The translations under genes were made by a program, and so were the position numbers. Shown here piece after piece: positions 1 to 45,402 of a stretch of 64,000 bases of DNA. Position 1 is the first letter of the stretch. Every line of letters starts with the position of its first letter. The notes under the pieces are model-generated. The model saw nothing but the letters and a program-made list of their open reading frames with translations. It ran no database searches and was not told the origin of the DNA. Source of the stretch: Ceratodon purpureus (taxonomy: Eukaryota > Streptophyta > Bryopsida > Pseudoditrichales > Ditrichaceae); contig CM026425.1 in NCBI GenBank assembly GCA_014871385.1, forward strand, positions 7,603,243 through 7,667,242. The letters run 5' to 3'.

Positions 1-1667
1 AGGCATATATTGCCTAATAGGGCAATATTTGCCTTTGTACCTGATCATGGTCTCATCGACCGTGAGTGCAACATTGGGGTTCCACAATGTTGCACAAGCC
101 TCCCTCACCCCATTGGCTAACCATCGCACTTTCCATATTTTATCATAGCTTGGGTCATTCTTGTCTCCCTCCCTACTAGAGTGCGGGGTCAAATGCAAAC
201 ATCGTGTGATAGACTCAAAACGGTCACGAGACATCATTGAGGAAATAATTGGGCAATGGTATAACACTTGGTCACGTGACCAGTAAAGCCTGAGATTGGG
301 TAGCCTCTTGAGACTCATAAACATCCGGATAGATAAATAACCCTCCAAGTCCCTAATAGTCAAAGGCATCCATCTTGGTCCCCCTCTAGTGCTTCCATCG
401 TCTTTGGTCACTTCCAATGCATATCTATTTGTTTCTTGCACAATTCTCTTCAAAGTGGAAACAGGAAAAAATCTGTGAAACAAACCAAGTGGCGAAGGCA
501 CTTTTTCAAATTCAATTTTGCAACCAGGTTCTGGCCCTGAAAACATATTGGTATCATGGCTGTAGTTCTCTAATCCTACTGCCCATGTCTCCCCCCGATA
601 AATATCCTCAATAGACCCTGGTACAATCTTCTTTGGCTTTCTGGGTCCCGCTTGGCCCCTCCCTGCCCCACTTCGCCCGGTCCTACCCCGCCCCCTTCCT
701 TGGTTGGTGGCGACGCCCATGTCATCCGACCCCACCTCTTCACCAACTGCCCCAAAATGGTCGCCTACTCCTCTCCCTCGGCGCCCACCGGTGGCTCCAC
801 GACCAGCAGCTCGGCGCCATGTCACAGCGATTCCCTCATCCCCACTCAACCCCCGACCCCGACCTCTCCCCCTCCCTCTAGCTCTCCCTCTCCCTCGCCC
901 AGATGTCTCTCCCTCTCCCTGGATCCCCACCCCGTCCTCACTCTCTCCGAACCCGCCAATCCCCCTCTCGGCATCCCTCTCTCCCTCCCGACCCCGATCT
1001 CTCTCTGAATCCCCCTCTCGACCTCGCTCCCCTCCACTGCCCCATCTACTTCTCCCTGATTTTCCACCCCGGTCTCTCTCCCCCCCGATGTCCTCCCTCT
1101 TCCTACCACTCTCCCTCTCCCTCTCCCCCCTCGCATCCCTCTACCGCCCTCCTCCCTTGTACATCCCCGCCCTGAATCACTAACCCCTGCTCCCCTTTTT
1201 CCCCGGCGCCCTCGTCCCCGCCCTTCTCCCCGCGGCCTGCCTCCCCGACCCCTTCTTGATGCAGGCGACGCCTCCCCTGCGCCCTCGCCAAACTCGCCTC
1301 CGACCTCCACCTCGGCGACCCCCCGTCCGCGCCCTGTCAGAGTCACCAGCAGTCCCCCACCTTCACCGTAAGTCATCAAACTCCCACCCTCCATGCTCCC
1401 TCCCCCCACCATGTCTTCATCCCCCGAACTTGGCTCCTCCTCACTACAGAAGTTCATTTCCCACTCCCCGAACTGACCCATCTCGTTTTCTGGATTGTGC
1501 AGGTGGAAGAAGGAAGCGGGCTCGGCATTGGGATTCACCTGATGGAGGCTGTTAAGCCCCACGCGGGCTTCCTCCGCCTCTACGCGCCCTAGATGGTTGG
1601 CGACCGCGCTCCGCCACCCCCATGCCGCCCTCTCGGCCGGTCCCTGCTGTTGGCTGGCCCTCGGCAA
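1..1667 (-). CDS. piggyBac-type transposase, 5' part (runs off left edge)
   Basis: Cut-and-paste DNA transposase of the piggyBac/PGBD superfamily (DDE_Tnp_1_7 type), which inserts at TTAA. A minus-strand frame is open from about 1179 to position 1. It reads a Gly/Arg-rich tract (about 660-1100), then GETWAVGLENYSHDTNMF, WMPLTIRDLEGYLSIRMF, LYWSRDQVLYHCPIISSM, MSRDRFESITRCLHL and finally VDETMIRYKGKYCPIRQYMP at the window edge. The last block matches the piggyBac region around the first catalytic Asp (DEQM..FKGR...QYMP type). The remaining catalytic Asp residues and the C-terminus lie outside the window. A second minus-strand frame (846-1667; acidic FCSEEEPSSGDEDM followed by Gly/Arg repeats) looks like the N-terminus. 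Joining the two needs an intron or a frameshift between about 1000 and 1180 that I could not place. The start is therefore uncertain and the gene may be broken. Confidence 0.85.
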
Positions 1668-1709
1668 ACCGAGCCCGGACTCTCCTTCCTCCTCCTCCTC
1701 CGAAGTCTG

Positions 1710-2412
1710 CTACATCAGCCCCCTCCACAGGCGGGGGGGACTCATCCTGACGAGGTCTCCTCCACCCTCCCAGCCCCCGCTCTCCATCTGCACCATTTCT
1801 GCTGCGGCCCTGACCCCGACCTCTTCGCCCACCCCTCCCTCTGCGTGCAACTCGGATGACGCGGTCTCCCTCCTCATCCCCATCAGCACCTCCGTCTGGG
1901 AGATCATGTGGGAGCCCTCCATTGAGAGTCCATGGTCGCACAACTCTTGGGATGTGCCATCCATCGGGTGAGGAGGATGGATCAGGCCAGATGTACCCAC
2001 GGAGTAGCTCATTGAGCCATTCTGGAAATCCATCCTCCCTCCCCTCTTCTCTCCGCTCTTGCCACCTCAAAATATAAGCTGTCTAACGTCGGAAGGAGTA
2101 GCGAAGTCCCTGGTTTGTGTCGTGGATTCTCCCCCACCTCTCTCCTACAAATCCAGGGAGCCTCCTGAGGTAAGTCTCGTCAAAAAGCCCCAAGACTAGT
2201 GAAGTTTGATGTTCGTTGGCCCCCTGCTCCTCTTGCAACCAATGGGAGATTGCAGCTACATGCTCATTCAACTCTTCTGGTGGTGGTGGTGGTGGTGGGG
2301 GAAAGGTATAGCGTGAAGGTGCATAGGCCATCCGAAAATGATGTTGCTTCTCCTTTCCACAAACTCGCAGTTTCTCACTGTCCTCGAAATGCCTTGCTGT
2401 AGCACAGCCCAC
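1710..2412 (-). CDS. possible upstream coding exons of the piggyBac-type gene
   Basis: Two minus-strand open segments look protein-like rather than low-complexity. One is at 2083-2412: a run of eight Pro, then HVAAISHWLQEEQGANEH and GLFDETYLRRLPGFVGERWG. The other is at 1710-2033: MSYSVGTSGLIHPPHPMDGT and MISQTEVLMGMRRET. Each closes with a stop, and I found no convincing splice pair joining them to each other or to the transposase frame. They could be 5' exons of the transposase gene, exons of a separate host gene, or chance open frames in a strand-biased GA/CT-rich region. Confidence 0.3.
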
Positions 2413-3035
2413 TGCCTCTCACTTGTTCACCCTCCCCGAATCTCAAGCAGAGCTCCAGCACAGTTCTCTCGCAGCAGCTCCCCACCTCCCCAGATCCCCT
2501 CCACTGTCCCCTTTCCGATCACGTACTCTCCCCTCGTCCTACTTCACCTTTCCCCTTTCGCTCCCTCTCTCAATCTCCCTGTTCCCCTCTCTCGGCACTA
2601 ATCATTTTTTTTTCCTTCTATTTCTTCAGGTTTCCTCTCTCGGCTTCACCGCCACTCTCTTCCAGTAAGTCACCTCCGATGCAGACTCCCTGAATTTGCC
2701 CACCCCGCCCCTCAGGTACTCTCCCCTCGTCCTCATTCTCCCTGGTTTTCCTCTTCTCCCTCCCCGATCCCTCTCTGGTTCTCTCGCAGCAGACTGATTT
2801 TTTTAATTTCTCTTATGCCTCCCTGTAGGTTCCCCCCCAAGGATTCCCCGACGCTCACCTCTTCGATCTCTCGTTGAACTTCCCTGGACTAATTCTCCCG
2901 GCCCCTCAGGTACTTCCCCCTCCCTCTCAATCTCTCTCCCCCCCTCCCTTGTGGTCCCCAACCACCCTTCACTCTCCCCTCCCTCGATTCTCGAACTCAC
3001 CGTTTCCCCTTGCGATCTCACTGCAGGTTCTCTCT
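2160..3035 (+). other. pyrimidine-rich stretch with repeated AG|GT splice-like signals
   Basis: The plus strand is dominated by CT-rich sequence from about 640 to 3100. Between 2160 and 3035 it contains a perfect donor consensus (GAG|GTAAGT, near 2165) and several pyrimidine tracts ending in AG followed directly by GT (near 2630, 2711, 2828, 2911 and 3026), plus a GTAAGT at 2665. No coding frame was recognised here. It may be the 5' region of an unseen plus-strand transcript or simply compositional bias. Confidence 0.3.
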
Positions 3036-3936
3036 TCCCGAACCCCGCCCGGTTGCTCAGCTCCACCCCACTCGCCTCACACGATCCGAAATTCACCGAA
3101 ACCACACTTTGTTCTCTCTCACGGTTTCACTGCTATGACTGTACTGATAGGACCGGCCCAGGACCGCTAGTTCGCTAAGGAAGTTCGGAACTCTCTCCTT
3201 GATTCTGCAGCATTTGGGAAACTGAATGCTCATTTTGCAGCAAGGCCCTTACATTCTCCTTGTTTGAGTGTCTTGATGACAAATCTTCAATTGACGGCCA
3301 CTCTCTCTCCTTGCAATTGGTATTGTCAGTCAAATCTCTCCTTGGGGGCTATAATTGAATTCCGTTGCCCACCCCAACCTTGATTGTGGCTTGAATTTGG
3401 TGGCTGTGAGGATCTTCCCCTCTCCCTCCCATTAGTGCTTGCTTTGGATCCCACAGTTTTAGCAATGCAAAGTGACGCCCCCTCCAAACCCTCATTTTGA
3501 AATTTGTATTTGAATATGATTGTGCCATGTGTCCATAGTATTTTGAAGGGACTTGGTCCCTCCTCCACCGTGGCTGTCTACATGGAGTACTTTTTTGAAC
3601 ATTCAACAACTGCCCACAAAACCACAAACTGCCCATTTTACAACCGATGCACCTCCCGGGCACTTTCCAAATTTTTTGTCCAAGACAGTTTTTCCTCCTC
3701 AAAGTTCCTGCCCTTGCAAAGCAAGTGCCCTCAAGTTGGAAAAAGTTCACTGCGCGGTATTGATCATTTCCACTTTGGAGTGCCATTAAAATTCACCAAC
3801 ATGGAATTTTCTGAAAAAAAAAAAAAGTGATTTGGATACATTTCACCACCCTGAACCTCAAAAAAAAAAATTGGATGAAAAACTGTCAACTGAATGACAG
3901 CTGCGAACGGTCAAAGAATGAAATCGACCAGTTTTT

Positions 3937-3961
3937 GGTCATTTAGGCGTTTAGGGGTTAA
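3937..3961 (-). repeat. piggyBac-type terminal sequence with TTAA target site
   Basis: Read on the minus strand from 3961, the sequence is TTAA followed by CCCCTAAACGCCTAAATGAC. The same start (TTAA, CCCCTAAACGCCTAAACGAC) opens the short element at 42892, and similarity between the two loci continues for roughly 200 bases inward. TTAA duplication and a terminal CCC are hallmarks of piggyBac elements. The orientation fits this being the 5' end of the element that encodes the transposase at 1-1667, which would put an untranslated leader of about 1.5-2.3 kb between them. That link is inference. Confidence 0.65.
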
Positions 3962-17230: not shown

Positions 17231-17341
17231 TTTATATACTTGCATTCATGACATACTCCACATACAATGTTTGCATTTTAGTGTGGCCTCCGATGTTTTT
17301 TTTTTCATAGGTCTAGTCTTTTTCATTACCAAATCATATAA

Positions 17342-17632
17342 CATTCTTTTGATGTCGTCTGCATTTTCCGACATTCTTTTGAGTGGTCTGCATTGTCCGA
17401 CATTCTTTTGGGTCGTCTGCACTGTCCGACATTCTTTTAGGTCGTCTGCATTTTCCGACATTCTTTTGGGTCATCTGCATTGTCTGACATTCTTTTGCGT
17501 CGTCTAAATAGTCTGACATTCTTTTGGGTCGTTTCCATAGTCTGATATTCTTTTGGGTCGTCTACATTTACTAACATTTTTTTGTGTCGTTTGAATTGTC
17601 TGACATTCTTTTGGATCATCTACATTTTCCTA
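17342..17632. repeat. 29-bp minisatellite, about 10 units
   Basis: Head-to-tail units of 29 bases (first unit 30), consensus CATTCTTTTGGGTCGTCTGC followed by A(T/C)TGTCCGA. Divergence rises towards the right end. The minus-strand frames across it are artefacts of the repeat. Confidence 0.9.
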
Positions 17633-19656
17633 TCTACAACACATAATTTGAATTAGTGTAGAATTATTGTTGACTAATACGAATTTCAAAAAATTATTTG
17701 TGGTTAATCTACATGTTTTTATGCTCCGCACTAATTCAAGGTTTTAAATACCAATCCAATTCAATTTGGTATCCAAAAGAATTTGGATGCATTTAATGTT
17801 TTCAACAGTATAAGAGTTTGATAAGGAAGTATTAAAGAATTTAGAGACAACAAACTAGATTAATAAAACAAGTGGTTTCAAATATCAAGAATAAGGCAAC
17901 ACAATGATTTGTTTCACTAGACATGTTGGTACGACTAACGAGCATTTAGACATGCCTCATATTTATATTGTGAAACTTAAGTTTTACTTAATTTTTCTAA
18001 TAACGTCATAAAAGTCTTTATGAGGTTCTAAGAGCAAAGTTTCTTAGAAGTCTATATAAGCTAGTAGAAAATTATAGAAGGTTTATAAAGTCTATAGAAG
18101 CTTCTGGAAGTTGATGTTGATTGCAATTTGCATGTATGTAACAATTGTGAGAATAATTTTATTAATATCTATAAATTGCATGGATAATATTGATGTGGTG
18201 GAGAGGTGTTTTTTTTTTTTTTTTTTTTTTTTTTTGTTTAGCATGATAGTGAGTAGATGCATAGTTTATTTACAATTTTTAATTCATATTTACGCTACGT
18301 TCTGTTGAAGATGTTTTTTCAACTCTTTGTAAGCTTAAAAAATTAAAATCAAGTGATTGTTCTTTAAAAAAGCTCTTTTGTTAAAGGTTTAAATAGCTAA
18401 ATGTCAAACATAACTTAACATTTAATGTTTGTTTTTTTCCATCACTAGAGACATCCTCGAAATAATATCATATAGGACCATACAAAATCTATAATGTGCT
18501 ACTCATCCATGTTGTATTTATAAATCAAATATTTACTTGATACAGACTTATAAAGATAGATCTAATTAAGCACTACAATAACACTAAGTTTAATTTTTAA
18601 ACAAATATTATTTTTATGAGAGACTATATTCTATTTTGTTTAATGGTGATCAATCCTCAAATGAAATGATGGAATTTAGATCTTATATGTATTCAAATTT
18701 CTTAGAATTACAATCCATGTTCTTTTAACATAATCATGCAATCATTGACCAATAGGCTATGCTAAACAAATGGTCTTTTATTAAACAATTGAATATGATA
18801 TTTCATACATGACTATCTTCAAACTATTGATGTCTAGTTTGATGCCACACTTACATAAAAAGTTTTGCCTTCTAATATATTTATACATTTAATACATGAT
18901 AATGCATATCTTGATCACTCCTAAAGCAATCTCATAATACAACAATGTATTGTTTCAAATAGACTAAATACTTAAATATCTTCATTCAATTATTAAATTT
19001 GTACAATGTGCAAGTGATTGACTAAATAATTCAAGTTACAATTGAATACTACCAAATGTTAGTCTCATGTGAATACAATTTTTACTCATATACTTTTGCA
19101 TTGAGATCTATTGAATTAGTTGGGCACAATAATCGTGCATATCCATACTCCTTATAATGTTTCCAACATCCAAGTCATATTGTTCCATTCATTGTAAGAT
19201 TAACATGATTATGGATATTGCAAAATTTTGAAATAAAAGGAATCAAGTGAGGTTTGTAAATTTCCTTTGCAAATTGTGAAGCTTTGAGATCCAATTTGTT
19301 ACAAGAACTTGTGTACTCCTTCTCTGCACTTCTTCTTAGTGAACTCAATTTCGTGCTGCTCATGTTTTTGGTACATGCAAAAATCCAGCATTATTCATCT
19401 ACGACTTGAAGCCTTTGTAGAAAATTCAGATCTCATATGCACCTTCTTCCAAACCTCGTATGATTATAAATAACAATGGCTCTGTGGAACCTCGTATGGT
19501 TCCTCACGAAAATACCCCTCTGTAACTTATGTTACAAAGGATAAATTATAATTCTCAAAATTTGAGAAGGAAAGGAAAAGAAATACACTTAGAAAACGTG
19601 GCAACGTCTATGACTCTGAATTTGAGTCAACAACAGCTACACCGAAAAGGAAGTGT
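17633..19656. other. AT-rich gene-free DNA
   Basis: No supported gene. It contains a poly-T run of about 28 bases near 18208 and otherwise AT-rich sequence of the kind seen in old transposon debris. Confidence 0.5.
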
Positions 19657-19783
19657 TAAGGTAGAGGGCCCTAGAACCGTCCCCCTGTTTCCAAAACCGA
19701 TCAGGCTAAAATGTACAAACCAGGTACATTTTAGCCTGATCGGTTTTGGAAACAGGGGGACGGTTCTAGGGCCCTCTACCTTA
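19657..19783. repeat. perfect 60-bp inverted repeat with 7-nt loop
   Basis: Arms 19657-19716 and 19724-19783 are exact reverse complements over 60 bases, with loop AAACCAG between them. The arm begins TAAGGTAGAGGGCCCTAGAA and ends AGGCTAAAATGTAC; complementarity stops cleanly on the outside. It could be a recent foldback duplication, a hairpin small-RNA precursor or a short palindromic mobile element. Confidence 0.95.
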
Positions 19784-20582
19784 GACTGACTATATTTGCT
19801 TAGTGTTCATTCAGTCAGTCATGACTCATCAGCGTTTAAATTACTGGCGAATTTTCGCCAGAAACTTACCTCAAATTGTGTGTGGCTCCTCATACACTAG
19901 GAAAAGTGAGGAAAAAAATGGATGAATTCGCCAAAATCTTATGAAAATTTAACCAAAGTCGCCACTCGTTGGATGAAAGTAACTTAAAATAGAAAATTTT
20001 ATGGATGAATATGTTCAAATGGATGATTCATCTTACTTGGCTTCATTTCAAGGTGCCTGTCGTGCTACCTGTGAAAAAACAGGATTTAAACGCTGTGACT
20101 CATGTTTGGAATAAGAATACTACTCATGGTGCTGTGCTTTACTCAAGGTTTATTGTTGTAAATCTGCCCTGCATTTCGACCGCAAAGGGGCATCCGCCTT
20201 GATTCTGGAACCATGATTTGTGACAGTAATATTAGGACAGCAGCATTACCGGTATTCTGAACCTTTTTATTACATGTTTTTTCTTCTGAAGATGCTGAAT
20301 TTAGCATTATGTGCCGTGGATTGATCATCTTGAATCTTACATACATACGGGTATCACAATTATCCTTTGAGTGACCTGGTACCCTAACATAACAACTGAA
20401 TCACAACATCCATGTTATGAAAATTATGCCCTGAAAGTCTTCCTGCATCATTTTACTAAATACCTTTCTATCTCTTCAAAGATAGTGCAGTTACTACTAT
20501 AGCATCTTCTGAAGGCCGCAATTAAGAAGCGCTCACTCTCAGATCTCAGATCAATAAACCAAGGCAAACAATACAATAACTT
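19784..20582. other. intergenic, no gene recognised
   Basis: Short frames only, none with recognisable features. Confidence 0.4.
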
Positions 20583-20770
20583 AAACCGGGGTACATGTAT
20601 ATAAAGTGGCAATGTGCATGTGTCATTTGTAACCCTAGTTTTGTGAAGGCTCTCCACCTCTCTCATATCTCTTTTCCAATTAGAGTAGTCAAGCTTCTTT
20701 TGACCTTTGAATAGAGTAACTCGAAGTAACTCCTCGTCTACACTCTGGACTTCTGCTTTAAGATATTGCA
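20583..20770. repeat. dispersed repeat R1, copy 1 (TATA-bearing)
   Basis: This copy and 45222-45402 share about 180 bases in the same orientation, including TATATAAAGTGGCAATG, GTGTCATTTRTAACCCTA, GTAATCAAGCTTCTTTT-like and CACTCTGGACTTCYGCTTTA blocks. A weaker third copy lies at about 21025-21160. A minus-strand frame here (QYLKAEVQSVDEELLRVTLF) is the best coding sense, but the other copies break it. Confidence 0.7.
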
Positions 20771-21614
20771 CTTTGGAGTGTATTGTAGTTGTTTATCACA
20801 ATAAGCTTGCAGAACTTGACAAACATACCAGCAACATTGATGCAAGGTATGAGAAAATCGAGATGCTCATCGAGTGTCTCCATCACTAGGCTATTCTAAA
20901 CATAGAAATAATCATTCTCTAGCTCAAAATTTGATGTTCAAAGACGAATATCATATGGTGGAGCATATAATGAAGAACATAATGTTCTTAGTTGTGTTGC
21001 TAATCAATTGATATTTTAAATTGGTGTCCATGTATATAAAATAAATATAGTTTGTTTCATTTGAAACCCTAATTATGTGAATTGTCTTCATCACTTTGTG
21101 TTCTTTCTCACCTTTTCTCTCCTATTAGACTACAAGTCAAACTACATTAACCTCTAAATGCCCTTAAAGCCAAAATGTGATTGTGACATATTTTAGACAT
21201 TATTCGACAATGTCAAAAATAATTATTGTATTTTGAGATTTTACATATCGTTAAGATGCTTTAGGTAGTTATGCATATGGGAAACTTTGTTTGATAAGAT
21301 TTAGATATGTTATGTAAAATTATGGACGGTTGAAGGTTTTAAAACTCCATATAAATAGCCAAAAAAATTTTAAATGTATTTTTAAAAATAATTGAAAATA
21401 TCATCATTTTGTAAAGATTAATATGCAAAGATTTCCTCTCAAACTATCATTTAACCCTTAATGGACTAAGAGGATCCTCTATGAATTTTGGGCGAATATC
21501 TATGTTTGGAATTATTTTATTTATTTTTTGGGAATTTTTTAGTGATGATAAATATTTATAAGACCTTTCAAATAAAACAAATTGCATCAAAATTTCAATA
21601 AATATTTGTTCTAC
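20767..21614. other. repeat-rich spacer
   Basis: Holds a degenerate further copy of repeat R1 (about 21025-21160) and AT-rich sequence. A 60-codon plus-strand frame ending at 20889 (HNKLAELDKHTSNIDARYEK) has coiled-coil character but no family match. Confidence 0.4.
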
Positions 21615-21874
21615 CGTAGCTTACTAGCAGCTTTGTCCAAAAACAATTCTAAAAATAGAAATGAACAAATTAGATAATTATGAAGTCAAAAAAACGAAAT
21701 CAGAATAAATTAGTTTTTGAAGTATTTTGTTGGTTTTAAACCATTTAAGGTCATTTTTACTGATTTTTGGCTAAAAAACAAAAATTAAGAAATTCAGTTT
21801 TCAAGAGACGAACATCATTTTTCCAAAATAATTAAATATTCGCTGGTGCGGCGCGAAGCTGCTAGTAAGCTACG
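21615..21874. mobile_element. MITE with perfect 19-bp terminal inverted repeats
   Basis: The left terminus CGTAGCTTACTAGCAGCTT (21615-21633) and the right terminus (21856-21874) are perfect reverse complements. The interior TTTGTCCAAAAACAATTC and CCATTTAAGGTCATTTTTAC match the element at 29374-29627 in inverse orientation. Length 260 bases, non-coding. Superfamily undetermined. Confidence 0.85.
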
Positions 21875-22311
21875 ATATTTATGAGGTTTTGAAGATTTCA
21901 ACCTAAATAAAAGGTAGGTTGGGCGGGACTTATAAAATTTTCAAATCATCTTTTCAAAAAATTCAAAAAATATCAAGTTTAGAGGCTAAGATTTTGGAAT
22001 TTGTATTATTTATAACTCTCAATCTTGGAGTGGAAGTCTTTAAGTACGTTAATTATAAGGTCCTATGATCGAATTCATTAAAAAATGTTACAATATGAAA
22101 AAGAACAACTTGCTTTATCATGAAGTATTAATCCCTAAAGGATTAAGATTGGTTTTGTTTCCCACTCTCAAATTCTGGAAAATTATATTTCAATAACTTG
22201 GCTTTAAGATTCTATAGCTAAATTTGCCAAAAAATGTTACGAGATTTAAAAATTAGTTGCCTTTCTAAAAGACTATTGAAAAACAACTTTTGGTTCAAAA
22301 CCATCTAGACG

Positions 22312-22668
22312 TTAACCCTTAAACGTCAGACCCAGCCCGAGGGGCTGGGTTTAAAGGAATAATTGGAGACAAAAGTTTCATTTCTCAACCAAATCAAGCG
22401 AGACTTGTTGCGTTGGAAAGCTATTGAAAAAGCGATCTAGATTCCAAATTTTCGCCCCATTTGATAGATTGTGGAATCGTTGGTAAGCAATCAAAGTTAT
22501 TAGATTGAACAAGTTTTGAGGTTGGGGCAGTTGAAGTTGAGTTGTGCTCCAATGGTACAGTGCTACAGTGCGGCGCTACAGTGCACGGCAGAGCCATTTT
22601 TGGGGGAAAAAGTATTATATTCCGTCCGGGCTGCCCACCCAAGACCCAAAATGACGTTTAAGGGTTAA
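22312..22668. mobile_element. TTAA-flanked piggyBac-type MITE
   Basis: A 349-base element (22316-22664) with 13-base perfect inverted ends CCCTTAAACGTCA and TGACGTTTAAGGG, flanked by TTAA on both sides (22312-22315 and 22665-22668). Just inside the left end is an 8-base stem, CCCAGCCC-GAG-GGGCTGGG (22331-22349). TTAA duplication plus CCCT ends is diagnostic of piggyBac-like transposition. No coding capacity. Its ends differ from the CCCCTAAACG group at 3957 and 42892, so it is a second subfamily. Confidence 0.9.
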
Positions 22669-24994: not shown

Positions 24995-27900
24995 TTAGTC
25001 CTCCTTCCGCATTGAATTCTTCCACTCATCGTAAGCGACATCATAAGGGAAGTCATCGAGCCCGTAAAAGTCCTGGGCATGCATCCCCACGACAAGAGGC
25101 ACGTGCGTGGACAAGCGATTGCGGAGTTTGTTTTTCATGAAAGACAAAGTCAAGAAGGTCCGTTCGTCCTCTACGGAGCCGAGGACGGTAACCACCGCCA
25201 AGTCCACCACTTTCATGTACTCAGATAATTTGTGGCGGAGAAGGGCATTGGCCTCAATCCGACGCCACAATCTTGTCAGGGGGTTGACGGGAAGATCTCC
25301 GTGCATAGCGGCCTCACAATTGGCCCTCATCGCAATCTTGAATAGGCAAGCTTGTTCATCCAGCTTAGCGATCGAAAGCACTGGAAGGGCTTCCTTGCCT
25401 TTTGCGGTTTGAGCACCAGGCACAGGGGAGGCCTCATCTTGAATCTGCGACTCAGGGGCATTTTGCAAATCAGAAGGGCTTTTTGGTGGAAGGGCGACGT
25501 ATGTTTTCACAAGGCCGTAATGCTCCTTGATCACAGCAAGGTGTTTGTCAAAGTCACCCTCGGCGCTTTCCCTCAGCCAATATTGAGGGTAGCAGAACCC
25601 GAAGGCGTCCATGAGAGAAGACGAGGGAAACCTCTATTCCAGTTCAGCTATCAATTGCTTCGCTGCCCCTGTTATGCAAAATAACGATATTGTCACATCA
25701 AAATTCATGTCATTCAGTATTGAGGTTTAAGGAATCATAGAAGGATTTAAAAACAAAGAAAAAAAAAAAAGGTAGAAAGCTTACCATGGCACAGTTTCTT
25801 CACATCGTCCACAATAGTAGCATACACTTCCCTCGTAACTGACATAGCAGAAGTTGTGCCGACGGCTCTTTAAATCGCGGGGATGCTGTGACCACTCGGG
25901 GTGAAGTGCAGAACCTCTGCAGAGTCCACATTTAAATCAAATGATCCCTGCACCCAGCTCATCGGGATGGCATCATGCCTGACACGCACAAGTCCCTTAA
26001 AGTTGAAAAAAACATCCTGAGTGAAAGCAACATGCTCATCCAGATAGAAAGAGTGCACATCTGCGATGCACATCTGGATTGCCGCTACGTAGTCACAGAC
26101 AAAGACGTCTCGACCTTGTGCGAACTGCATGAGGCTGTGTATGGTTTTGAGAAGAGGTAAGAAGCCCGCAAGTCCAAGCAAAATTTGGATGTCCGTGAGA
26201 TGGTCAAGATTCTTCTTGGCTATCTCCATTAGCTTTTTGTCCACTTTCACTTTACTGGCCAGGACGTCTTGGACAGGCTTCGCAGAGTCCAGATACATCT
26301 TGACGAGGAGCGGCCGATACTCACTCATGATACAAACCGAAGGAGATAGCATGGAGATCCATCTGGTTTTTATGTTTTTCAGTATCTTCAAGCCTTTAGA
26401 GTGCATGAGCTCCGCAAGTTTCACGAATTCCAAGTGACGTTTGGGTGACTTGACAAAGAATGCATGGAGCGGCATTAGCATGTCCTCGATCCTCTCGACC
26501 ACGGGTAAGGCACTCAACATTTTTACTGCCAAATTTGTTCTGTGAGTCTGTGCTACAGTGACACAAACACAAAAAATATTAGTCTCTTTCCGTCAGAAGT
26601 TGCTTCGGGCCACCTAAGTAGATGAAGCACAATATGTAATTAAAAAAAAAAAAAAACCTGGTTTAGAATTCTTACCATGCAGTGTATGCCCAACATTTGG
26701 GGAGCATGGTTATTCTTCAGTTGGTTAAGAACTCCGTTTTTCTTGCCCTGAAACGTACTAACCCCATCTGTAAAGAAAGCAATCAAAATTAGATAACCAG
26801 CATGCACCGCATGCAGCATGCAACAAGACAATCATAGAACCTAAGTCATGCAGGAAGCAACATCGGCAAAGAAAAAAAATGAAGCAGAGTGCAGAATCCT
26901 ACGCACCTGCCTCAAAAGATGCAAGCCGCGTGACCAGCTCTGTCTCCTTGAAGCCTGCGGCGTTTTTCAGAGCTCCAAGTATCACGGCTGTGAGGTTGTC
27001 GCGCCCACCACCATCCGTGACTCGCTCCAAGGAGAGGAGCAGTGGCTTGCGTTCCCAATTATCACATACGTATCCATGAATTGAAATCCAACTCTGCGTG
27101 TCTAGAGTGGTAACTTCATCACAAGTCACCGAAAAAAAACGTGCCTTTGCCATGACTGCCTTGGTTTTCAGCTGCACTTGACTCCACATGCATTTTGCTC
27201 AGCCCCAGCCCGCGTTATCGGACCAATGTCGTTTCGGGAGTTTGGGGACTCCCAAGAATGTGAGCAGCCGAAGCAAAGCTGCGTACTCTAACATTGGTCG
27301 GCCCTCTTGCAACATGTGCAAGATAGTTGCAAACTGCAGCCTCTTTCTGGCTCGTTCACCTTTCACAACCGCAAGCTGCTGTGCCACAGTGACTGTATTA
27401 CGAGCTGCAAAAAGCCTCTCGTATCTCAAATGTTTGGAGTTCTTAGGCATATACCATTGACCTTTTTTAATGCCCAATGCCATGTTCTTTGTGGCCTTGC
27501 GTTTACCGCTGTGTTTCACAAGTGTATCCCATTTCGGTCCAAGGATGTTGGGCTTGCCTGTGATCTGTGAACACACAACGCACTTCACAGACTCGTATAA
27601 GCCGTCAGAACCCCTAAACAATTCCGCCCAGGGCAGTTTCGCAGACCATGTGTCTTGAAACTTCCGTGTAGCATCATAGTTTTCTTTAGGCACCTTCTCC
27701 TTGACATCGGGTTCAAACTCATTGTCTGACATGTCATCGACCTCCTCGATAACAGACAATTTACCCTTTCCTTTCCGAACCTTGGCCGCCTCGACAGTGT
27801 CAACACTGTTAGTCCTGTGCGCAGTCTCGTTAGATCCATCCGACGACAAAGCAGTGACTTCTGTGCCTAATCCCGGGCTCACTGGCACTGTACACAGGGG

Positions 27901-28194
27901 AACCGTATCCGCATCGACATTCAACAAAGTGATGGCAGGATTAGACCTAGGACGCTTACATGGGGCATGACTTGCCTTCCTCTTCCTCGGACTTTCACAT
28001 ACGGAGAACCTCTTACCCTCGCTGGAACAACCAAGCTCTGCGCTCTCATGGCACTCACTCACAGATTGAGATGTGCTCACAGAAGTTGAGCCACAAAGAA
28101 CAACCGTTGGGGTCAGCCCAGACGAGGAAGACGATGACTCTGACCCAGGGATGCGGTTGTAGTAACGCAACAGAGCAGACCCTACCTTGACCAT
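24995..28194 (-). pseudogene. hAT-superfamily transposase with three in-frame stops
   Basis: Four exons (26907-28194, 26676-26767, 25785-26547, 24995-25668) join in frame at GT-AG sites to 939 codons. Order: Ser-rich and basic N-terminus; a BED/TTF-like zinc-finger region (KCVVCSQITGKPN, then KH); an RNase H-like core (FFSVTCDEVTTLDTQSWISI, then DGVSTFQGKKNGVLNQLKNN and GIHCMTHRTNLAV across the exon junctions); and a C-terminal hATC dimerisation block (GSVEDERTFLTLSFMKNKLR). The frame is broken only by TGA at 27199-27201, TAA at 25870-25872 and TAG at 25634-25636. Coding-like sequence continues through all three (for example VTREVYATIVDDVKKLCHG after the second). It resembles the ZNF862/KIAA1586-like hAT group. 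It is probably a recently inactivated transposon; hAT termini and target-site duplications were not identified. A cryptic intron around the first stop cannot be excluded. Confidence 0.85.
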
Positions 28195-29373
28195 TGCAGC
28201 CCGACCACTCGCAACTTAGACGACACAACACAGAAGAAGATTGAATCTGACGTAGAAATTACAAAAATTCAGGGGTAGATGATACCGAGTTCGAGACTTC
28301 GCATGGAAGCAACCACGGACTTCCGAGTGGCCAGTCCTCGATTGCAACTCCGTTTATCGCAGACCACAATCGCCACACAGTGCCACACAATCGCACCACA
28401 ATGCCACACAATCGCACCACACTTGTAAGCTGTCTCTGGGCTAGACCGCGTTGTATCAGCCCAGCATTGTCTGCGCCTTGATCGGTCGGGAATTACGAGA
28501 GAACTAATCAATGCGTTTCACCCAAAGAGCGATCAACAACAAAGGGGAGAAACCCCAAGTAGTAATTCAGTCTCGGCAGGAAAATTGTGCAATGTGCATG
28601 CAGCATCACCGAGTTGCAATTTCGCAAAGTTCGTGAGCGAGTGAAGACGAGCAATTGTGAGATACTGAGATGAGGCATCAGAGGAAAGAAATGCATGAGG
28701 GCCAGAGGCTACACACAGCCGTGAGTCACGGCATGAAGGATTGATCTGTGAAGCATGTAAGCCATTGGCAGATAACCCCATTCCAAAATTTCCAATACGA
28801 AGAGTCCAACCCTCCAACTCAGTTCCCATCCACGTACAATAAAACAGAGTTCCACTCAATCCACTCCCGCTCATCATCTCCCTGATCTCGAAATCCCTCG
28901 CAGACAGGGAAGCTCAGTACAACAAGAAAACAAGCGGAATATAAAACAGGCGACAAGCTTGGAAACTTGGGAGAGATGGAGTGGCGAACAAGGGAGGGAG
29001 ACAAGGTACTGGTTGCCCCTCAAACCCACCCAATTAGGCTCCCAAATTTCTCAATCACTCGAGTTCAGTCGCCATAAGGCGCCATCATCAAAACGGCTGG
29101 TGCATCATCACCGCAGATGGGGGCGACATGACATCCTATGACCATCCAACGGTGGCCCCAACCCCCCCAAACCGGGTAAGTTCCTCGCTCCCTAAACTTT
29201 TCAATTTCCTCTGATTTGGTTACTTTTTGGTACTGAGGGTAATTTTTTTCGCCAACTGGCTCTTTTTCGCCTCTTAAAAAATCACTGTCCACAACACCAC
29301 ATCGCATATCGACCACGAAGCCTCCAGGTCCAATCTGGCATGTAGGTACAAAAGTGAATCATACTACCATAAC
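28195..29373. other. 5' flank of the hAT gene and spacer
   Basis: No gene supported. A short degenerate tandem repeat (TGCCACACAATCGCACCACA type) lies at about 28370-28420. Confidence 0.4.
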
Positions 29374-32191: not shown

Positions 32192-32515
32192 GTCATGACC
32201 GGAAATAATTCTCTACTGCATATACACTACGCGACGACATACACAGGTACTGCGCATGCATTCTCCGACACGCTAAGTTATCTGTACAAATCCATGTTCT
32301 AGTGCGCCGCTCGCTACCTTCCAAACCGAGTCAGTCACAACAGAACAGCGTCGCAGCAGAAAAGATTAATGCAAACAAACAGGAGAGTCGCAATTCACAT
32401 CATGTTGAGCTTGTCAGTTTCGAGGTGGTTGACAGGCAGATAAGAGTGGAAGCAGTGATGATCACGCAAGAGAGGGTGTGCATTTCAGGTTGAGTGGGAG
32501 TTCCAGTAGCTGAAG

Positions 32516-33787
32516 ATGATGGGGAGTGAAGCGGTGGGGAGGATTCTCGGTGCGTGCAAGCGGCATGAAGGAGTGGTGTGGAAGAGTATCGTTGCTGTGT
32601 CAGTGATAGCGGTCGTGTTCGCGCGCTCATCGAGTACTGGGACGGCTATGGCGATGCACATCTCGGGGCAGCAAGCGTTGGATTATGCAGAGCGGATGGC
32701 CACCACGGCCGTCAACCTTTGGGCCGTCGCGGGTCCCGCGAAGGATAGGTTTCAGTACGAGCTTGGGGTGGTTCTGCGCGGGATTGAGGTCGTTTACGAG
32801 AGGACTCACGAGCAGAAGTATTTCCAGTTCCTCAAGCTCAAGGTGGACCGTTTCGTGAACGAAGATGGTACGATCCGCACCTACGTCTTCAATGAGTTTC
32901 AGCTCGATAGTATCCTCACAGGCAGGTTGGTTCTCACGCTTTACAACTCAACTGGGGAATCGAAGTACAAAACCGCCGCGGACCTCCTCCGCGAGCAGCT
33001 GCGGAAGCAGCCGCGGCTGAGCGAAGGCGGTTTCTGGCATAAGAAGGTGTACCCTTACCAGATGTGGCTGGATGGGCTCTACATGGCGGAGCCATTCTAT
33101 GCGCAGTACGCGAAGGAGTTCAAAGAGCCTGTAGCTTACGACGACATTGCCTTGCAGTTCATCGTTGCGGAGAATCGTATGCGAGATGCGAAATTAGGGT
33201 TACTGTACCACGGCTACGATGAATCCAGGGTTTCCGCGTGGTCGGATCCCGCGACGGGCCACTCGCCTACCGTCTGGGGCCGTGCAGTGGGATGGTACAC
33301 CATGGGGCTTATTGATACGCTGGACTTCTTCCCCACAGAGCATGCGAATCACCCTGAGCTTCTGGCCATTCTAATCCGTCTCGCCACTGCGGTGATTCGC
33401 TTCCAGGATGCGCAGTCTGGGCTGTGGTGGCAGGTGATGGACAAGGGCAACGATGCAGGGAACTACCTCGAGTCCTCAGCGTCTGCCATGTTTGTGTACA
33501 CTCTCGCCAAGGGTGTGCGCCTTGGCTACTTGCCCAGGGAGCAGTTCCTGGAATGCGCTTTGAAGGGGTATGATGGGATTATCTCGCATTTTTTACAAGA
33601 CTCCTCTGCTACAAACGGCGGCGCTGTGACTTACACAGGAACCGTTGCTGTGGGAGGCTTGGGTGGGACTCCGTATCGCAATGGCACTTACGCTTACTAT
33701 CTCAGTGAGCCTGTTGTGTCGAACGATCCCAAGGGTGTTGGCCCCTTCATAATGGCCAGTGTAGAGATTAGTGTTTTGACCAGCTAA
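32516..33787 (+). CDS. GH105 unsaturated rhamnogalacturonyl hydrolase, intronless
   Basis: Hydrolyses the unsaturated galacturonyl residue left by rhamnogalacturonan lyases (YteR/YesR type). 423 aa in one exon. A hydrophobic stretch at about 22-36 (WKSIVAVSVIAVVFA) suggests a signal peptide or anchor, hence secretion to the wall. The (alpha/alpha)6-barrel blocks follow: YELGVVLRGIE, FNEFQLDSILTGR, YQMWLDGLYMAEPF (about 180-193, with the conserved Asp expected to be the catalytic acid), WSDPATGHSPTVWGRAVGWY (about 240-260), GLWWQVMDKGND (about 301) and YLESSASAMFVYTLAKGVR. Typical members are 350-400 aa, so it appears full-length. Two adjacent ATG codons open the frame; the upstream sequence has stops. 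The lack of introns and the microbial/fungal distribution of the family make acquisition by transfer possible. Product confidence is high; origin is inference. Confidence 0.92.
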   Translation: MMGSEAVGRILGACKRHEGVVWKSIVAVSVIAVVFARSSSTGTAMAMHISGQQALDYAERMATTAVNLWAVAGPAKDRFQYELGVVLRGIEVVYERTHEQKYFQFLKLKVDRFVNEDGTIRTYVFNEFQLDSILTGRLVLTLYNSTGESKYKTAADLLREQLRKQPRLSEGGFWHKKVYPYQMWLDGLYMAEPFYAQYAKEFKEPVAYDDIALQFIVAENRMRDAKLGLLYHGYDESRVSAWSDPATGHSPTVWGRAVGWYTMGLIDTLDFFPTEHANHPELLAILIRLATAVIRFQDAQSGLWWQVMDKGNDAGNYLESSASAMFVYTLAKGVRLGYLPREQFLECALKGYDGIISHFLQDSSATNGGAVTYTGTVAVGGLGGTPYRNGTYAYYLSEPVVSNDPKGVGPFIMASVEISVLTS

Positions 33788-34052
33788 TTTGAGCTTCATC
33801 AATTGTGTTTGGGAAGTAATTATTTTGCTGCTGTTGTTATGAATGTTCAGATGTTGTTATGAATGTTCAGATGTTGTTATGTACAGATGTTTGAGGAGGT
33901 TGCTGGTTGCTGTTTGAGGAAGTTTCGATCATTTTGATTTTTTGTGGTTGCTGAAGCACAAGATGGTGGACATTGGGAAAGTGGAGGGTTATCCACTTGT
34001 GGTTGTTTGATTGTGGTTTTAGGAAGAGTTCTAGTACTCGTTGAATTTCAAC
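33788..34052. other. GH105-HET intergenic gap
   Basis: 265-base spacer. It carries a short tandem duplication (TGTTGTTATGAATGTTCAGA, about 33832-33875) just after the GH105 stop. It must hold the 3' end of one gene and the leader of the next if they are transcribed separately. Confidence 0.6.
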
Positions 34053-36218
34053 ATGGTATCTCTATCCGGGGCACGATTGGCACTTTCAAACGAGCCCTTG
34101 TACTTCCAAGACACGCCATGGTTGGGGGGGAAGCACGACGGATATCCTTTAGTGCCTTTCGTGGAGTACTTGAGAATTCGTGACAAGGTCTCCCCTCATT
34201 CAAGGATTAGAGACGTAGCAGAGCTGCAATGCAAATTGACGTTCGGCTTGTTGGAAGCAGTGATGGAAGTTAAAATTGCTGAGACTGAATTACTACGAGT
34301 CGACAGCAGCAGTGGCAAGCAGGTGTTGACGAGCGAAAATCTCCCGACGCTGTTTCAGGCTTGGCGGGACCGGATTCGACAATGTAGAGATAGAGACTTG
34401 AAGGCATGTCGGAAGTGGGCAAGCCGCGTTGAGACGACGCTCATACAGACAATGACCATACTCAGGACAGAAGTTTCGAAACTGCGAAACAGCACGTTTT
34501 TGCTGGCTGGTTTGGAACAAGAGGTGGTGGCAGACATCCTCATTCAGATTGGGTCCGTTGCTGAAGCAGTGGGGTGTTCGAACCAGGCGTTTCCGGACTT
34601 GTTTCCTAAACCTATTGGGCTTTCCTTCATGTTTATACTGGCCCTAGTCTCATGGCAGAATAAGACAGGTAGGATGCTTGCGAATGGATGGTGTCCGTTC
34701 ACTGTCCGGATTCTTTCAGAGAGTGCATCTATGCTGGGATACGCACGCACTTGTAAATGTCCTGACGTTAGACTATCTGAAGGACATGAGAAATGTACCA
34801 CGAAAATATGTATGATAAGCACGAGAGACACAAGCAAAGACACACCAAAGCACGACGGAGGATCATGCAACTGCGACAATTACAAGCCGTTGTTGGAGGA
34901 TGTCGTTGGTTTTTTGAAGGATTGGAAGATACCGGTTGTCCAATGCCCTCCGCCCCACGACGTTCTCAGCGTCAGTGACTCCAGATACACGCCTTTTGTA
35001 GCGATATCTCATGTCTGGGCCGACGGGCTGAGGGGCACGACCGAGAAAGGACTGCCAGCATGCCAGATCAAGCGGCTTGCGAAAATGGCCAGCAAGATCC
35101 TGGGAGATCCTGGCGGGGCCTTCTGGGTCGATACACTCTGCATCCCTGAGATCGATGACTTGAGAGACCGGGCAATAGGGTTAATGGCGCAGACCTACAA
35201 AGATGCAAGAGCAGTGCTGGTGATTGATTCCAGTCTTCGGGAAATTTCAAGTTCAGCTCCGCGTGAGGACAAGCTGTTGTATGTGTTGTCTACACAATGG
35301 ATGCAGCGACTCTGGACTTTCCAAGAGGCGGCTTTAGCTCGGAGGCTATATTTTGAGTTTTCGGATGGCAAGCTGGTACACCTAGAAGAGCTCTTGTGGA
35401 AGAGCCCTGGAGACCCTTTGACAGAACAGGAGAGTTGCAACCCCGTGCTTAAGTCCCTTGCAATGGAAATCTACCGGCGCACAGGCACCAAGGTGTATAA
35501 TCGGATTGGGTTTCGCATCAGTGATGTGGCGTTTAACCTCCGCTGGCGGACCGCAAGCAAAGAAAGTGATGAGACGCTTGCAGTGTCAGGGCTGTTAAAT
35601 CTGGACGCTTACAAACTCGCTGCTACTCGTGATTCTGAAGAGCGCATGAAAGATTTTCTTCTCCGCATTGAGAAGCTTCCCACGGGAATTATCTTCCTCT
35701 CTGGCACAAAATTAGATAAGGAGGGATTCCGCTGGGCACCCAAAACGTTTATGCGATGTGCAGTGGCCGAATTGTCAGGTCCGTATGACGCCATTTGCAC
35801 ACCCACTGGCCTTGAGGCAGAATACGATGCCATAATCCAAGACACAGTTGTGGACGGAGAGATAAGTGAGTGGTACATCAGAAGAACGCATCCAAACTCA
35901 TCTAAAGAATGTATATTCAGAGTCACGGTCCCAGAAGCGAGATTTGTGAGTACCTCTTACTCCTGTAACACTATACTGTTTGTGTCGAATCTCCCTCTGG
36001 AGGGTTTGGGAGGGACAGTTGGTGCAGGGGTTCTCGTAGATCCAGATCTGGTTTCCAGAGAAGCTTCAGATGGAGGAAATGGAGGAGATAGAATTTTGTG
36101 CGAATTCAAGCGACCGCTGTTTCTGACTAACATCACCGAGACTGAGTTAAGCAACCTGGAAAAGCCTCTCCCAATGGTGTGCGCGAAATTGGTGAGGAGG
36201 AAAGTGAAGGTTGTGTGA
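34053..36218 (+). CDS. HET-domain (heterokaryon incompatibility-like) protein, intronless
   Basis: 721 aa in a single exon from ATG 34053. The HET domain is in the middle: PFVAISHVWADGLRG (about 312-326), GGAFWVDTLCIPEIDDL then RAIGLMAQTYKDARAVLVID (about 352-390) and QWMQRLWTFQEAALARRLYF (about 412-431). These are the three classic HET blocks (AISHxW, WxDxLCIxQ with Gln replaced by Glu, and R.WTxQE). The N-terminal 300 residues are helical and Cys-rich near 245-290 (CKCPDVRL, CNCDNYKPLLEDV); the C-terminal 280 residues are unassigned. In filamentous fungi HET domains trigger cell death after non-self recognition. The family is rare in plants, and I recall reports in mosses. Open over its full length, so probably functional. 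Its role here is unknown. Confidence 0.9.
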   Translation: MVSLSGARLALSNEPLYFQDTPWLGGKHDGYPLVPFVEYLRIRDKVSPHSRIRDVAELQCKLTFGLLEAVMEVKIAETELLRVDSSSGKQVLTSENLPTLFQAWRDRIRQCRDRDLKACRKWASRVETTLIQTMTILRTEVSKLRNSTFLLAGLEQEVVADILIQIGSVAEAVGCSNQAFPDLFPKPIGLSFMFILALVSWQNKTGRMLANGWCPFTVRILSESASMLGYARTCKCPDVRLSEGHEKCTTKICMISTRDTSKDTPKHDGGSCNCDNYKPLLEDVVGFLKDWKIPVVQCPPPHDVLSVSDSRYTPFVAISHVWADGLRGTTEKGLPACQIKRLAKMASKILGDPGGAFWVDTLCIPEIDDLRDRAIGLMAQTYKDARAVLVIDSSLREISSSAPREDKLLYVLSTQWMQRLWTFQEAALARRLYFEFSDGKLVHLEELLWKSPGDPLTEQESCNPVLKSLAMEIYRRTGTKVYNRIGFRISDVAFNLRWRTASKESDETLAVSGLLNLDAYKLAATRDSEERMKDFLLRIEKLPTGIIFLSGTKLDKEGFRWAPKTFMRCAVAELSGPYDAICTPTGLEAEYDAIIQDTVVDGEISEWYIRRTHPNSSKECIFRVTVPEARFVSTSYSCNTILFVSNLPLEGLGGTVGAGVLVDPDLVSREASDGGNGGDRILCEFKRPLFLTNITETELSNLEKPLPMVCAKLVRRKVKVV

Positions 36219-37261: not shown

Positions 37262-38020
37262 TTACACCTTGAAGGGGATGACCTTGCTGAGAATCTCCTC
37301 GCTCAAGGTCTGCACCTGCTTGTCCAAGCTGCGGAGCGTGTCCTCCTTCTGCTCCTCCAAATTTGCCAGCGACTGAGCAAGCTCCTTCTCAATCCTGTTG
37401 CGCGACTCCTGCAGCTTCTCGTCCAACATAGCAGCCGTTTCCTTCTTCGTCTTCGACAGAGCGTCAGTGGTCTCAATGCGGGCGGCCCTCAGAATCGCCT
37501 CGGCCTCCTCCTGCATCTTCTTAATCTCGCCCGAGTTGTCACGCACACCCATGAGCTTCTTCCGGATGTTCTCATCGCGCGCGTCCATCACCTTGGCAAC
37601 GGGCTTGAACCAGATGTTGTCAAGCGCAACCATAAGCAGCAGAAACTGCACCGCGATGATGGGCAAGGTCAGGTTGAAGTCGAAGATCTTACCCTTGGGC
37701 TCCTTCTCAATCTCCTCCGCGAGCGCGGGCAGCACCATCAGTGCATTGAACGCCAAAAACGACGCTTGCTTCATCAACGCGCTCTGCGACGCCGCATCCT
37801 TCACACTCCGGATGGCCTGCTTCACGCTCCCCTCGAGCTCGCTCAGGGGCGCCATTCCCGCGCGCACCTCCATGGCCTTCCGCGCCACCCGCTCCACCGC
37901 GGACCTCCTCACTCCGAGGCTCACCACCTGACGCGAGGCACTCAGTCCCGTGGAGCGCAGCCCAGCGGGCAGAGACGCCACCACCGCGGCCGAGCTCGTC
38001 ATGGCCGCCATCGCTGCCAT
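37262..38020 (-). CDS. atpG: chloroplast ATP synthase CF0 subunit b' (subunit II)
   Basis: Nuclear-encoded b' subunit of the plastid ATP synthase; together with b (AtpF) it forms the peripheral stalk that ties CF1 to CF0 in the thylakoid membrane. One exon, 252 aa. The start is set at ATG 38020 (MAAMAAMTSSAAVVASL), the first Met of a typical Ser/Ala/Arg-rich transit peptide; the frame is open further upstream but that part is not transit-like. After a probable cleavage near the LPALAEEIEKEPKG junction comes the single membrane helix LTLPIIAVQFLLLMVALDNI (about residues 130-150). Then NIWFKPVAKVMDARDENIRK and a long charged coiled coil (EAEAILRAARIETTDALSKT and onward) reach the end, SEEILSKVIPFKV. 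Length and order match plant AtpG (ATP-synt_B family). Confidence 0.94.
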   Translation of the reverse strand: MAAMAAMTSSAAVVASLPAGLRSTGLSASRQVVSLGVRRSAVERVARKAMEVRAGMAPLSELEGSVKQAIRSVKDAASQSALMKQASFLAFNALMVLPALAEEIEKEPKGKIFDFNLTLPIIAVQFLLLMVALDNIWFKPVAKVMDARDENIRKKLMGVRDNSGEIKKMQEEAEAILRAARIETTDALSKTKKETAAMLDEKLQESRNRIEKELAQSLANLEEQKEDTLRSLDKQVQTLSEEILSKVIPFKV

Positions 38021-38676
38021 TGCTCCACAAATGAATTGGGGTTCGTGAAGCACTGATACTCGCAAGCTAGAATGCAAGTGCGGGGGATTGAATGAGGGAT
38101 CGGAGTTGGGCAAGCCGACGTGAAGCAATGGCAGTGCGGGGAGATAAGGGGATCGGCAATTGCCGAGCGGATAACGAATCGCTCGCCATCGCTCGCCACT
38201 CAGTCATGGCCTTGTGGGTGGCCAGGAAACCTTCACCTCGCCTTTTTACTTTTTCATTCGTCTCGCTCTTTCTTCTTCTAAGTTTGTTTTGCGCTGACAA
38301 AGTACTACTCGTAGTAACATTTGTAGATAGGACATCGTGATTCGTTCGTCTTTGCAATTCCGAGGAGCCCAATCCTGCACCTGAGCGTTTCCGAGAGCTG
38401 GGAATAATGATGGATGGGTATGTATGTATCATGCGTTGATTGTTTTTCTTCTCTACATGTTTCTCTTGAACGCAACCGCTGTTTGATTGTTGTGATGCGA
38501 AGTGTGAATTTGTTACAGAAGAGTTTCATTAAAATTGCAGAATGGGTTGCCTGCCATGGTTACACTCATTCATGTTAGTAGGGTTTTCATAAACACTTGG
38601 ACATCATGCGCAGAAATGTAGCGCTTCAACAGGGTAATCATGCTCTCGGAATCCGCTGAGTAAATCAGAGTCTTTG

Positions 38677-42887: not shown

Positions 42888-43650
42888 TTAACCCCTAAAC
42901 GCCTAAACGACCCAAAACTGGTCGTTTTCATTTTTCCAAGTTCCATAACTGTCATCCAAATGACAATTTTTCATCCATTTTTTTTTTCACGTGGTAAAGT
43001 TGAGAGAGATCTATCTAACCTCATTAAAAAATTATCAAAATAATAATTTCATGAATTTTGGTGCCTCCTTAAAGGCAAAAAGATCAATACCGTGTGTGTA
43101 TTCAAAAATTCCTTGATACAGACAGCTAAAACACAATTTTGACTATCGGGATGATCTTTTTTGCAGTTGAGGTAAACTAATGAAATGTAGTTTGGCAAAT
43201 CTATTTTCCAGTCCAATTTAAAATTTTGAAAAATACCTAAAATTGAGTGATTTATAGCTGGTATAAGATGAAGGGGTATAACCGTGGCTACTTCTTGATT
43301 TTCCACGGTTTTAGGTTTTTTCATCATATTTTTGAATTAAAACATGATTTTTGAGCACGGAAACTGATATAAGGTTCTTGGTTGTCATATTCATCTATGG
43401 TAAATATTTCATAATTTTTTAGTATAACCTATATTTGATATGAATTTTCTTTGTTTGTTTTGATTTGAAAATTTATATTAATTACATTTTGAAACATTTA
43501 ATTTTGATAAAATTATTTTTTGTAGATAACATGTGTATCTAGCTAAGAAAAGTTTAAAATTCATATTTTACATTATTTATAGCAGCAAAATAGAGCATCC
43601 AAAGTCAAAGTCTATATCCGTGGTCATAGGCTCAGTCATTTGGGGGTTAA
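42888..43650. mobile_element. TTAA-flanked piggyBac-type MITE (CCCCTAAACG group)
   Basis: Element 42892-43646 (755 bases) with TTAA on both sides. Left end CCCCTAAACGCCTAAACGAC; right end, reversed, CCCCCAAATGACTGAGCC (imperfect inverted repeat). The first 200 or so bases resemble the sequence running inward from 3957, including GATCAATACCG about 190 bases in. The right 100 bases resemble 12085-12215. An internal minus-strand frame of 92 codons (43049-43327) shows no domain. Confidence 0.85.
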
Positions 43651-45221: not shown

Positions 45222-45402
45222 TAAAACGGGGGTACGGATATATAAAGTGGCAATGGGCATGTGTCATTTATAACCCTAATTATGTGGCTCTACACCTCTC
45301 TTGGATCGTTCTTCCAATCACAAGAGTAATCAAGCTTCTTTTAACCTCCAAATAGAGTAACCCTAAGTAACTCAATGTCTGCACTCTGGACTTCCGCTTT
45401 AA
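45222..45402. repeat. dispersed repeat R1, copy 2
   Basis: Second copy of the repeat at 20583-20770, same orientation, with TATATAAAGTGGCAATGGGC and CACTCTGGACTTCCGCTTTA. Open frames seen in copy 1 are broken here. Confidence 0.7.

Follow-up and report, generated by a model that had tools for sequence, protein, structure and literature searches.

The described systems closest to the element reported here are piggyBac of T. ni and piggyBat, both with solved structures. In the accessible text of PMC7351741, the active site of T. ni piggyBac consists of D268, D346 and D447, and a dimer of the Cys-rich domain binds a palindrome at bp 17-33, whose minor groove narrows around bp 25 and whose A-tract spans bp 22-25. 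We count palindrome positions from the first base after TTAA, and our comparison of positions with T. ni takes the numbering of that paper to begin at the same point. A CCC tip after TTAA was found in most elements of an animal piggyBac survey (PMC10813416) and many bee copies begin with CAC (PMC10140906), according to the available portions of both texts; the CCC tip is common, not universal, among piggyBac elements.

piggyBac is widely used in genome engineering, yet it is seldom named among the transposons of land plants. The word occurs 0 times in the accessible part of a 2022 land-plant review (PMC9033089), which names six terminal-repeat superfamilies without piggyBac. A repeat table for C-Fern contains, in the available part of PMC6890710, a PiggyBac row that reads 1230, 122417, 0.00; it resembles the present case as a superfamily label in a land plant and differs from it as a repeat annotation, without transposase or ends described in that part. 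As far as their accessible text goes, papers on other organisms mention the occurrence of piggyBac in plants in passing (PMC10140906, PMC8086355, PMC10813416), and both occurrences in the accessible text of PMC10619864 are the word "piggybacking". Among the matches listed from the open-licence literature, no title or abstract opening described a land-plant piggyBac with its ends.

Here we analysed a window of 64,000 nucleotides, that is, the whole stretch of DNA under study. Positions 1-3961 very probably lie in a nuclear genome of plant type and represent the 5' (left) half of a cut-and-paste DNA transposon of the piggyBac superfamily, which continues beyond the window. The superfamily is already known, and the present element is a further piggyBac member. 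With a readable end and short relatives available, a copy from a plant offers a handle on whether plant piggyBac acts like the insect one.

The transposase frame and the region upstream of it

On the minus strand, a frame that stays open as far as the window's left edge ends in ...LTVDETMIRYKGKYCPIRQYMP and contains LYWSRDQVLYHCP and MSRDRFESITRCLHL, the blocks that the first-pass annotation had quoted in naming a piggyBac-type transposase in a plant genome. The features of this region are as follows.

1-720, minus strand: N-terminal 240 aa of the piggyBac transposase, open to the window edge (Pfam DDE_Tnp_1_7; PDB 6x67/9c0f)
55-57, minus strand: codon GAT, the Asp of VDETMI, aligned with catalytic residue 268 of the piggyBac chain
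721-1140, minus strand: Gly/Arg-rich upstream extension of the transposase frame, without ATG (frame analysis)
849-1709, minus strand: 287-aa open frame, acidic and then Gly/Arg-rich, in a frame that differs from that of the transposase (frame analysis)
1555-2418, minus strand: transposase frame open over 2418-2086 and again over 2082-1555, with a TAG at 2083-2085 between these stretches (frame analysis)

The annotation had proposed a search with the Pfam profile DDE_Tnp_1_7, which we take to be the piggyBac transposase domain, Pfam's own title for it being "Transposase IS4". Results showed a match at residues 146-310 of the listed ORF (E 6.4e-30; 105 bits vs a cut-off of 22.4), covering profile positions 1-148 of 349 and clipped by the window edge; no family besides this one was found in the Pfam search of the transposase ORF up to E 1. 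When PDB was searched by sequence, piggyBac (6x67) came top with 5.2e-7 and piggyBat (9c0f) second with 2.9e-5, the third and last match (0.62) being an RG-repeat match. The residue number 268 given to the Asp of VDETMI was derived by counting back from the end of the PDB alignment. The first Asp of the catalytic triad D268, D346 and D447 (T. ni numbering) is present, and the positions of the other two lie beyond the left edge; the opening portion of the transposase core is inside the window, and two catalytic Asps, the Cys-rich C-terminal domain and the right end of the element are all outside it. Across 1-510 of the minus strand the transposase frame is open over 170 of 170 codons, the other two frames giving 28 and 26, and an open frame of 170 codons was reached by none of 500 dinucleotide shuffles. 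The Pfam family, the solved piggyBac and piggyBat sequences and the TTAA/CCC terminus described below agree on the piggyBac-type assignment, which is thereby upheld. A single-sequence structure prediction of a 194-aa piece was discarded (mean pLDDT 37.3). Scans with one protein, whose reach covers close relatives only, gave 1 stretch fitting the pattern in viral_contigs and 16 in genome_contigs, 0 being confirmed in either collection.

The annotation had also read 1-1667 as a single frame with an acidic N-terminus, and neither point was confirmed. From stop to stop, the transposase frame covers 1-1140 only, with stops at 1141-1143, at 1177-1182 and further up, and the listed ORF 846-1667, which holds the acidic part and some of the Gly/Arg part, lies in a different frame and overlaps that of the transposase at 849-1140. 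Because the acidic stretch within 849-1709 sits in another reading frame, its membership in the transposase protein is only putative; the 849-1709 frame is possibly a former or spliced N-terminal coding sequence. The first in-frame ATG below the upstream stops is that at 718-720 and yields 240 aa to the window edge, vs 285 residues of the piggyBac chain to the same aligned point. The protein that the sequence predicts opens with a basic stretch rich in Gly and Arg, and its start lies at 720 or above.

These frames bear on the strongest of the alternatives, which we regard as a serious possibility, if a little short of probable: the locus would be a decayed, immobile piggyBac remnant that has kept its core while a nonsense codon and frame switches in the N-terminal part prevent a full transposase from being made. 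The TAG at 2083-2085 stands within an otherwise open frame, and the open stretches switch frame twice, within 1709-1555 and within 1140-849. Composition favours open frames here, shuffles of 511-1709 averaging a longest frame of 137 aa; the longest observed, of 287 aa, was reached in 2 of 500 shuffles and the second-longest, of 210 aa, in 0 of 500. Two frames of this stretch are thus longer than those of nearly all shuffles, so that its openness is above what composition explains. In 1710-2420 the longest frame, 124 aa, is ordinary (79/500 shuffles) and the second, 118 aa, is unusual (3/500). Nothing was listed by Pfam up to E 10 for 849-1709 or for 1555-2082, and 2086-2418 gave three matches (E 0.0037, 0.13 and 0.22), all under their cut-offs. 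The donor-like words searched for occurred a single time in the purine-rich stretch 1100-2100, at 1444. Against a remnant, translation from the ATG at 718-720 would yield 240 aa of N-terminal sequence without a break, a length close to the 285 residues of piggyBac, and the core has no stop in 1-1140. For the upstream region there are several possible readings: former coding sequence that has undergone frame slips, an N-terminus joined by splicing, or the 5' portion of a transcript. The TAG and the out-of-frame sequence upstream make it plausible that the N-terminal region has decayed, unless translation begins at the ATG at 718-720.

The terminus at 3961, its short relatives and the surrounding DNA

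The left half of a transposon that we favour ends at 3961. The terminus and the related sequences in the window are listed here.

3946-3961, minus strand: 5' terminus of the element, TTAA plus tip, TTAACCCCTAAACGCC, facing the transposase (16-mer search)
22312-22668, plus strand: non-autonomous element of 357 bp; its 16-bp inverted ends, TTAACCCTTAAACGTC, match perfectly, and its low-coordinate end has a 21-bp palindrome centred at bp 25 (TTAA-pair scan)
42888-43650, plus strand: non-autonomous relative of 763 bp, bounded by TTAA on either side; its left end is homologous to the main 5' end and has palindromes centred at bp 25 and bp 66.5
21147-21162, plus strand: end-like match with 2 mismatches (terminus 16-mer search)

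At 3961 on the minus strand, TTAA is followed by CCCCTAAACGCC, with a tip that starts with CCC, and the terminus reads TTAACCCC.... When the terminus 16-mer was searched with at most 3 mismatches, 7 matches were found in the window vs 0.47 expected, and 0 of 100 shuffles reached 7; one of the seven (42896) overlaps another and lies off any TTAA. No TTAACC[CT] end in either orientation was found in 1-3960 besides that at 3961, so an element opening at 3961 is expected to include the transposase and to continue past the left edge. It is unlikely that the end belongs to a separate element and not to that of the transposase. The tip lies 3241 bp from the ATG (718-720) and the intervening stretch is C-rich on the plus strand, unlike the terminus, which favours two elements, but a facing TTAACC[CT] partner is lacking in 1-3945, a search that covers unmutated tips.

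All pairs of TTAA sites 60-5000 bp apart were then compared; the control consisted of 20 windows in which 4-base blocks had been shuffled within 2 kb. The pair at 22312-22668 was the sole one to match at 16/16 among 361 TTAA sites, and 0 of the 20 shuffled windows gave such a pair; its fold z-score is -4.3, to which the inverted ends contribute. Pairs matching at 13/16 or better numbered 23, vs 7-24 per shuffled window. Twenty pairs at 13/16 were dropped as within the control range, one of them being 21451-22668, which shares the end at 22668 with the 357-bp element that was kept, and the pair 18422-21788 (15/16) was dropped as a T-rich run, 2 of 20 controls also giving one pair at 15 or more. 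The two ends of the 763-bp element match each other at 13/16, which is within the control level, so its identification rests on homology to the main end: the left end aligns with the main end at 81.9% over 105 columns (blastn, counting four flanking bases), and an ungapped comparison from TTAA inward gives 82 identical columns of 105. The end-like match at 21147-21162 had no partner among the scanned TTAA pairs.

A TTAA target with a short terminal repeat is present at 3961 and at both ends of 22312-22668 and 42888-43650. A domesticated host gene derived from piggyBac, and no longer a mobile element, would fit the finding of one transposase, nine other long frames having been scanned with no transposase family found; the TTAA tip in the correct orientation and the relatives with similar ends make it a very improbable reading.

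The surrounding DNA was consistent with a plant nucleus. A 313-aa ORF at 37262-38203 (minus strand) matched Pfam ATP-synt_B (5.6e-12) and a chloroplastic ATP synthase b' chain (1.2e-44); the next match (5.2e-26) was also chloroplastic and the weaker ones, at 6.8e-5 and worse, were b subunits of ATP synthases. By eye, the protein has a long N-terminal extension resembling a transit peptide. A plastid ATP-synthase b' gene of nuclear type fits plant nuclear DNA, which supports the "plant genome" of the first-pass annotation, a land plant and a streptophyte alga both being compatible with it. The GC content of the window is 0.41, and scans of the window for tRNAs and with Rfam (gathering) gave none.

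Two long uninterrupted ORFs lie side by side near the ATP-synthase b' gene, at 32510-33787 (plus strand; Glyco_hydro_88, 2e-103) and 34035-36218 (plus strand; HET domain, 2.5e-9), and it is possible that they were acquired horizontally. Genes of the GH88 and HET kinds are mainly fungal or bacterial. A non-plant source such as an animal or a fungus, for which these two neighbours could speak, is hardly credible with the plastid ATP-synthase b' gene in the window and relatives of the element on either side of it, at 22 and 43 kb.

Other repeats and elements were also observed. Three long frames at 24995-28215 (minus strand) resemble by eye a decayed hAT-type transposase, with no Pfam match up to 0.01. 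A tandem repeat with a unit of about 4.84-4.85 kb occupies 53503-64000 and runs off the window; its copies begin at 53503, 58352 and 63193 and are 99.6% identical over 5658 columns and 97.1% over 817. Minisatellites were found at 17341-17626 (29-bp unit, 9.8 copies) and 44386-44756 (27-bp unit, 13.5 copies), and a dispersed repeat pair at 20583-20761 and 45224-45402 (81.3% identical over 182 columns), the latter copy holding a TTAACCTCC site at 45341.

Subterminal palindromes

Two palindromes were found by palindrome scan beneath the main tip.

3926-3940, minus strand: palindrome GACCAAAAACTGGTC, bp 18-32, centred at bp 25 of the main end
3883-3900, minus strand: second subterminal palindrome CTGTCATTCAGTTGACAG, centred at bp 66.5 of the main end

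The main left end carries, in the first of these, a subterminal palindrome that is the candidate site of a Cys-rich dimer by analogy with T. ni piggyBac, and an A-tract occupies bp 22-26. At the left end of the 763-bp element, a palindrome of 23 bp whose arms measure 8 nt has the same centre, bp 25, and the low-coordinate end of the 357-bp element, assigned as its "left" end by the palindrome alone, has the palindrome ACCCAGCCCGAGGGGCTGGGT, again centred at bp 25, with letters unrelated to those of the main end. The palindrome at bp 66.5 is common to the main and 763-bp ends, and two in-register palindromes shared by homologous ends were equalled in 6 of 2000 column shuffles. We rejected the idea that one palindrome of the main end is a copy of the other, since by eye their half-sites run in opposite orientations.

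We then counted. A palindrome with arms of at least 5 centred at bp 25 occurs at 3 of the 7 ends examined, and none was found at the other four (21147, 21451 and both right ends). Such arms at that centre are present at 5 of the 722 TTAA half-sites in the window, the three element ends included; the remaining two are 22322, which overlaps the end of the 357-bp element, and 42042. With arms of at least 8, the count is 2 of 722, both among the three element ends. Window-wide, 312 of 63,880 centres have an arm of at least 5 (odd loops of 1-7). Since the palindrome at bp 25 was first noticed in two ends and then counted, the comparison with 722 sites is a post hoc control, and since the main and 763-bp ends are homologous, two of the three palindromes are not independent. 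The 763-bp element has further A/T-rich palindromes with arms of 6-7, at bp 148 and bp 292.5 from the left and from bp 84.5 on from the right, which we take as chance. In neither of the two right ends does a palindrome with arms of at least 5 have its centre in the first 60 bp; a T/C/A run lies at bp 61 of one, and the other has the A/T-rich palindromes from bp 84.5 on.

All in all, these observations allow a tentative proposal, based on three ends of which two are homologous and on a pattern that had been spotted before any count was made: the ends of plant piggyBac may be modular, two groups in one genome sharing a near-identical tip, TTAACCC[CT]TAAACG, and keeping the bp-25 position while the letters of their palindromes are unrelated. 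If this were true, the core would read the shared tip and the Cys-rich pair the group-specific palindrome, the Cys-rich domain would determine which elements move, and the bp-25 architecture would have been retained between insects and plants.

Proposed mechanism and comparison with known piggyBac systems

For the piggyBac transposon that we favour, the solved piggyBac complexes offer a model of how it would move. In this reading the left end is at 3961 and the transposase gene points away from it, running out of the window. A transposase dimer would bind approximately the first 16 bp with its core, and two C-terminal Cys-rich domains would pair on the bp-25 palindrome. The DDD active site would then cut, the element being freed via TTAA hairpins, and insertion would follow at another TTAA, leaving the old site without a footprint. 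The shorter TTAA elements could be mobilised in trans. Binding, chemistry and mobilisation are ascribed to the present element by this analogy.

Comparison with piggyBat of Myotis lucifugus (PDB 9c0f) draws on the accessible text of PMC11707139. Its left end has repeated imperfect palindromes, the first, on our reading, about 25 bp from the tip, and its right end lacks a corresponding palindrome; both features resemble those of the present elements. Unlike here, where two palindromes lie 41.5 bp apart and are dissimilar in sequence, piggyBat has three repeats with a period of 44 bp, and it has 586 bp on the left, vs 3241 bp from tip to ATG in the present element. The sequence match of our transposase to piggyBat (2.9e-5) is also weaker than that to piggyBac. 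According to the same part of that paper, insect piggyBac carries the same 19-bp palindrome at both ends in asymmetric placement, whereas the right ends found here have no counterpart within 60 bp. From T. ni piggyBac (PDB 6x67/6x68) the present element differs in its second palindrome at bp 66.5 and its long 5' region. Features common to it and T. ni piggyBac are the beginning of the core including the first catalytic Asp, the TTAA target and a palindrome that has its centre at bp 25 and overlies an A-tract (bp 22-26 at the main end here, bp 22-25 in T. ni). By this analogy, the bp-25 palindrome suggests that plant piggyBac may work as insect piggyBac does.
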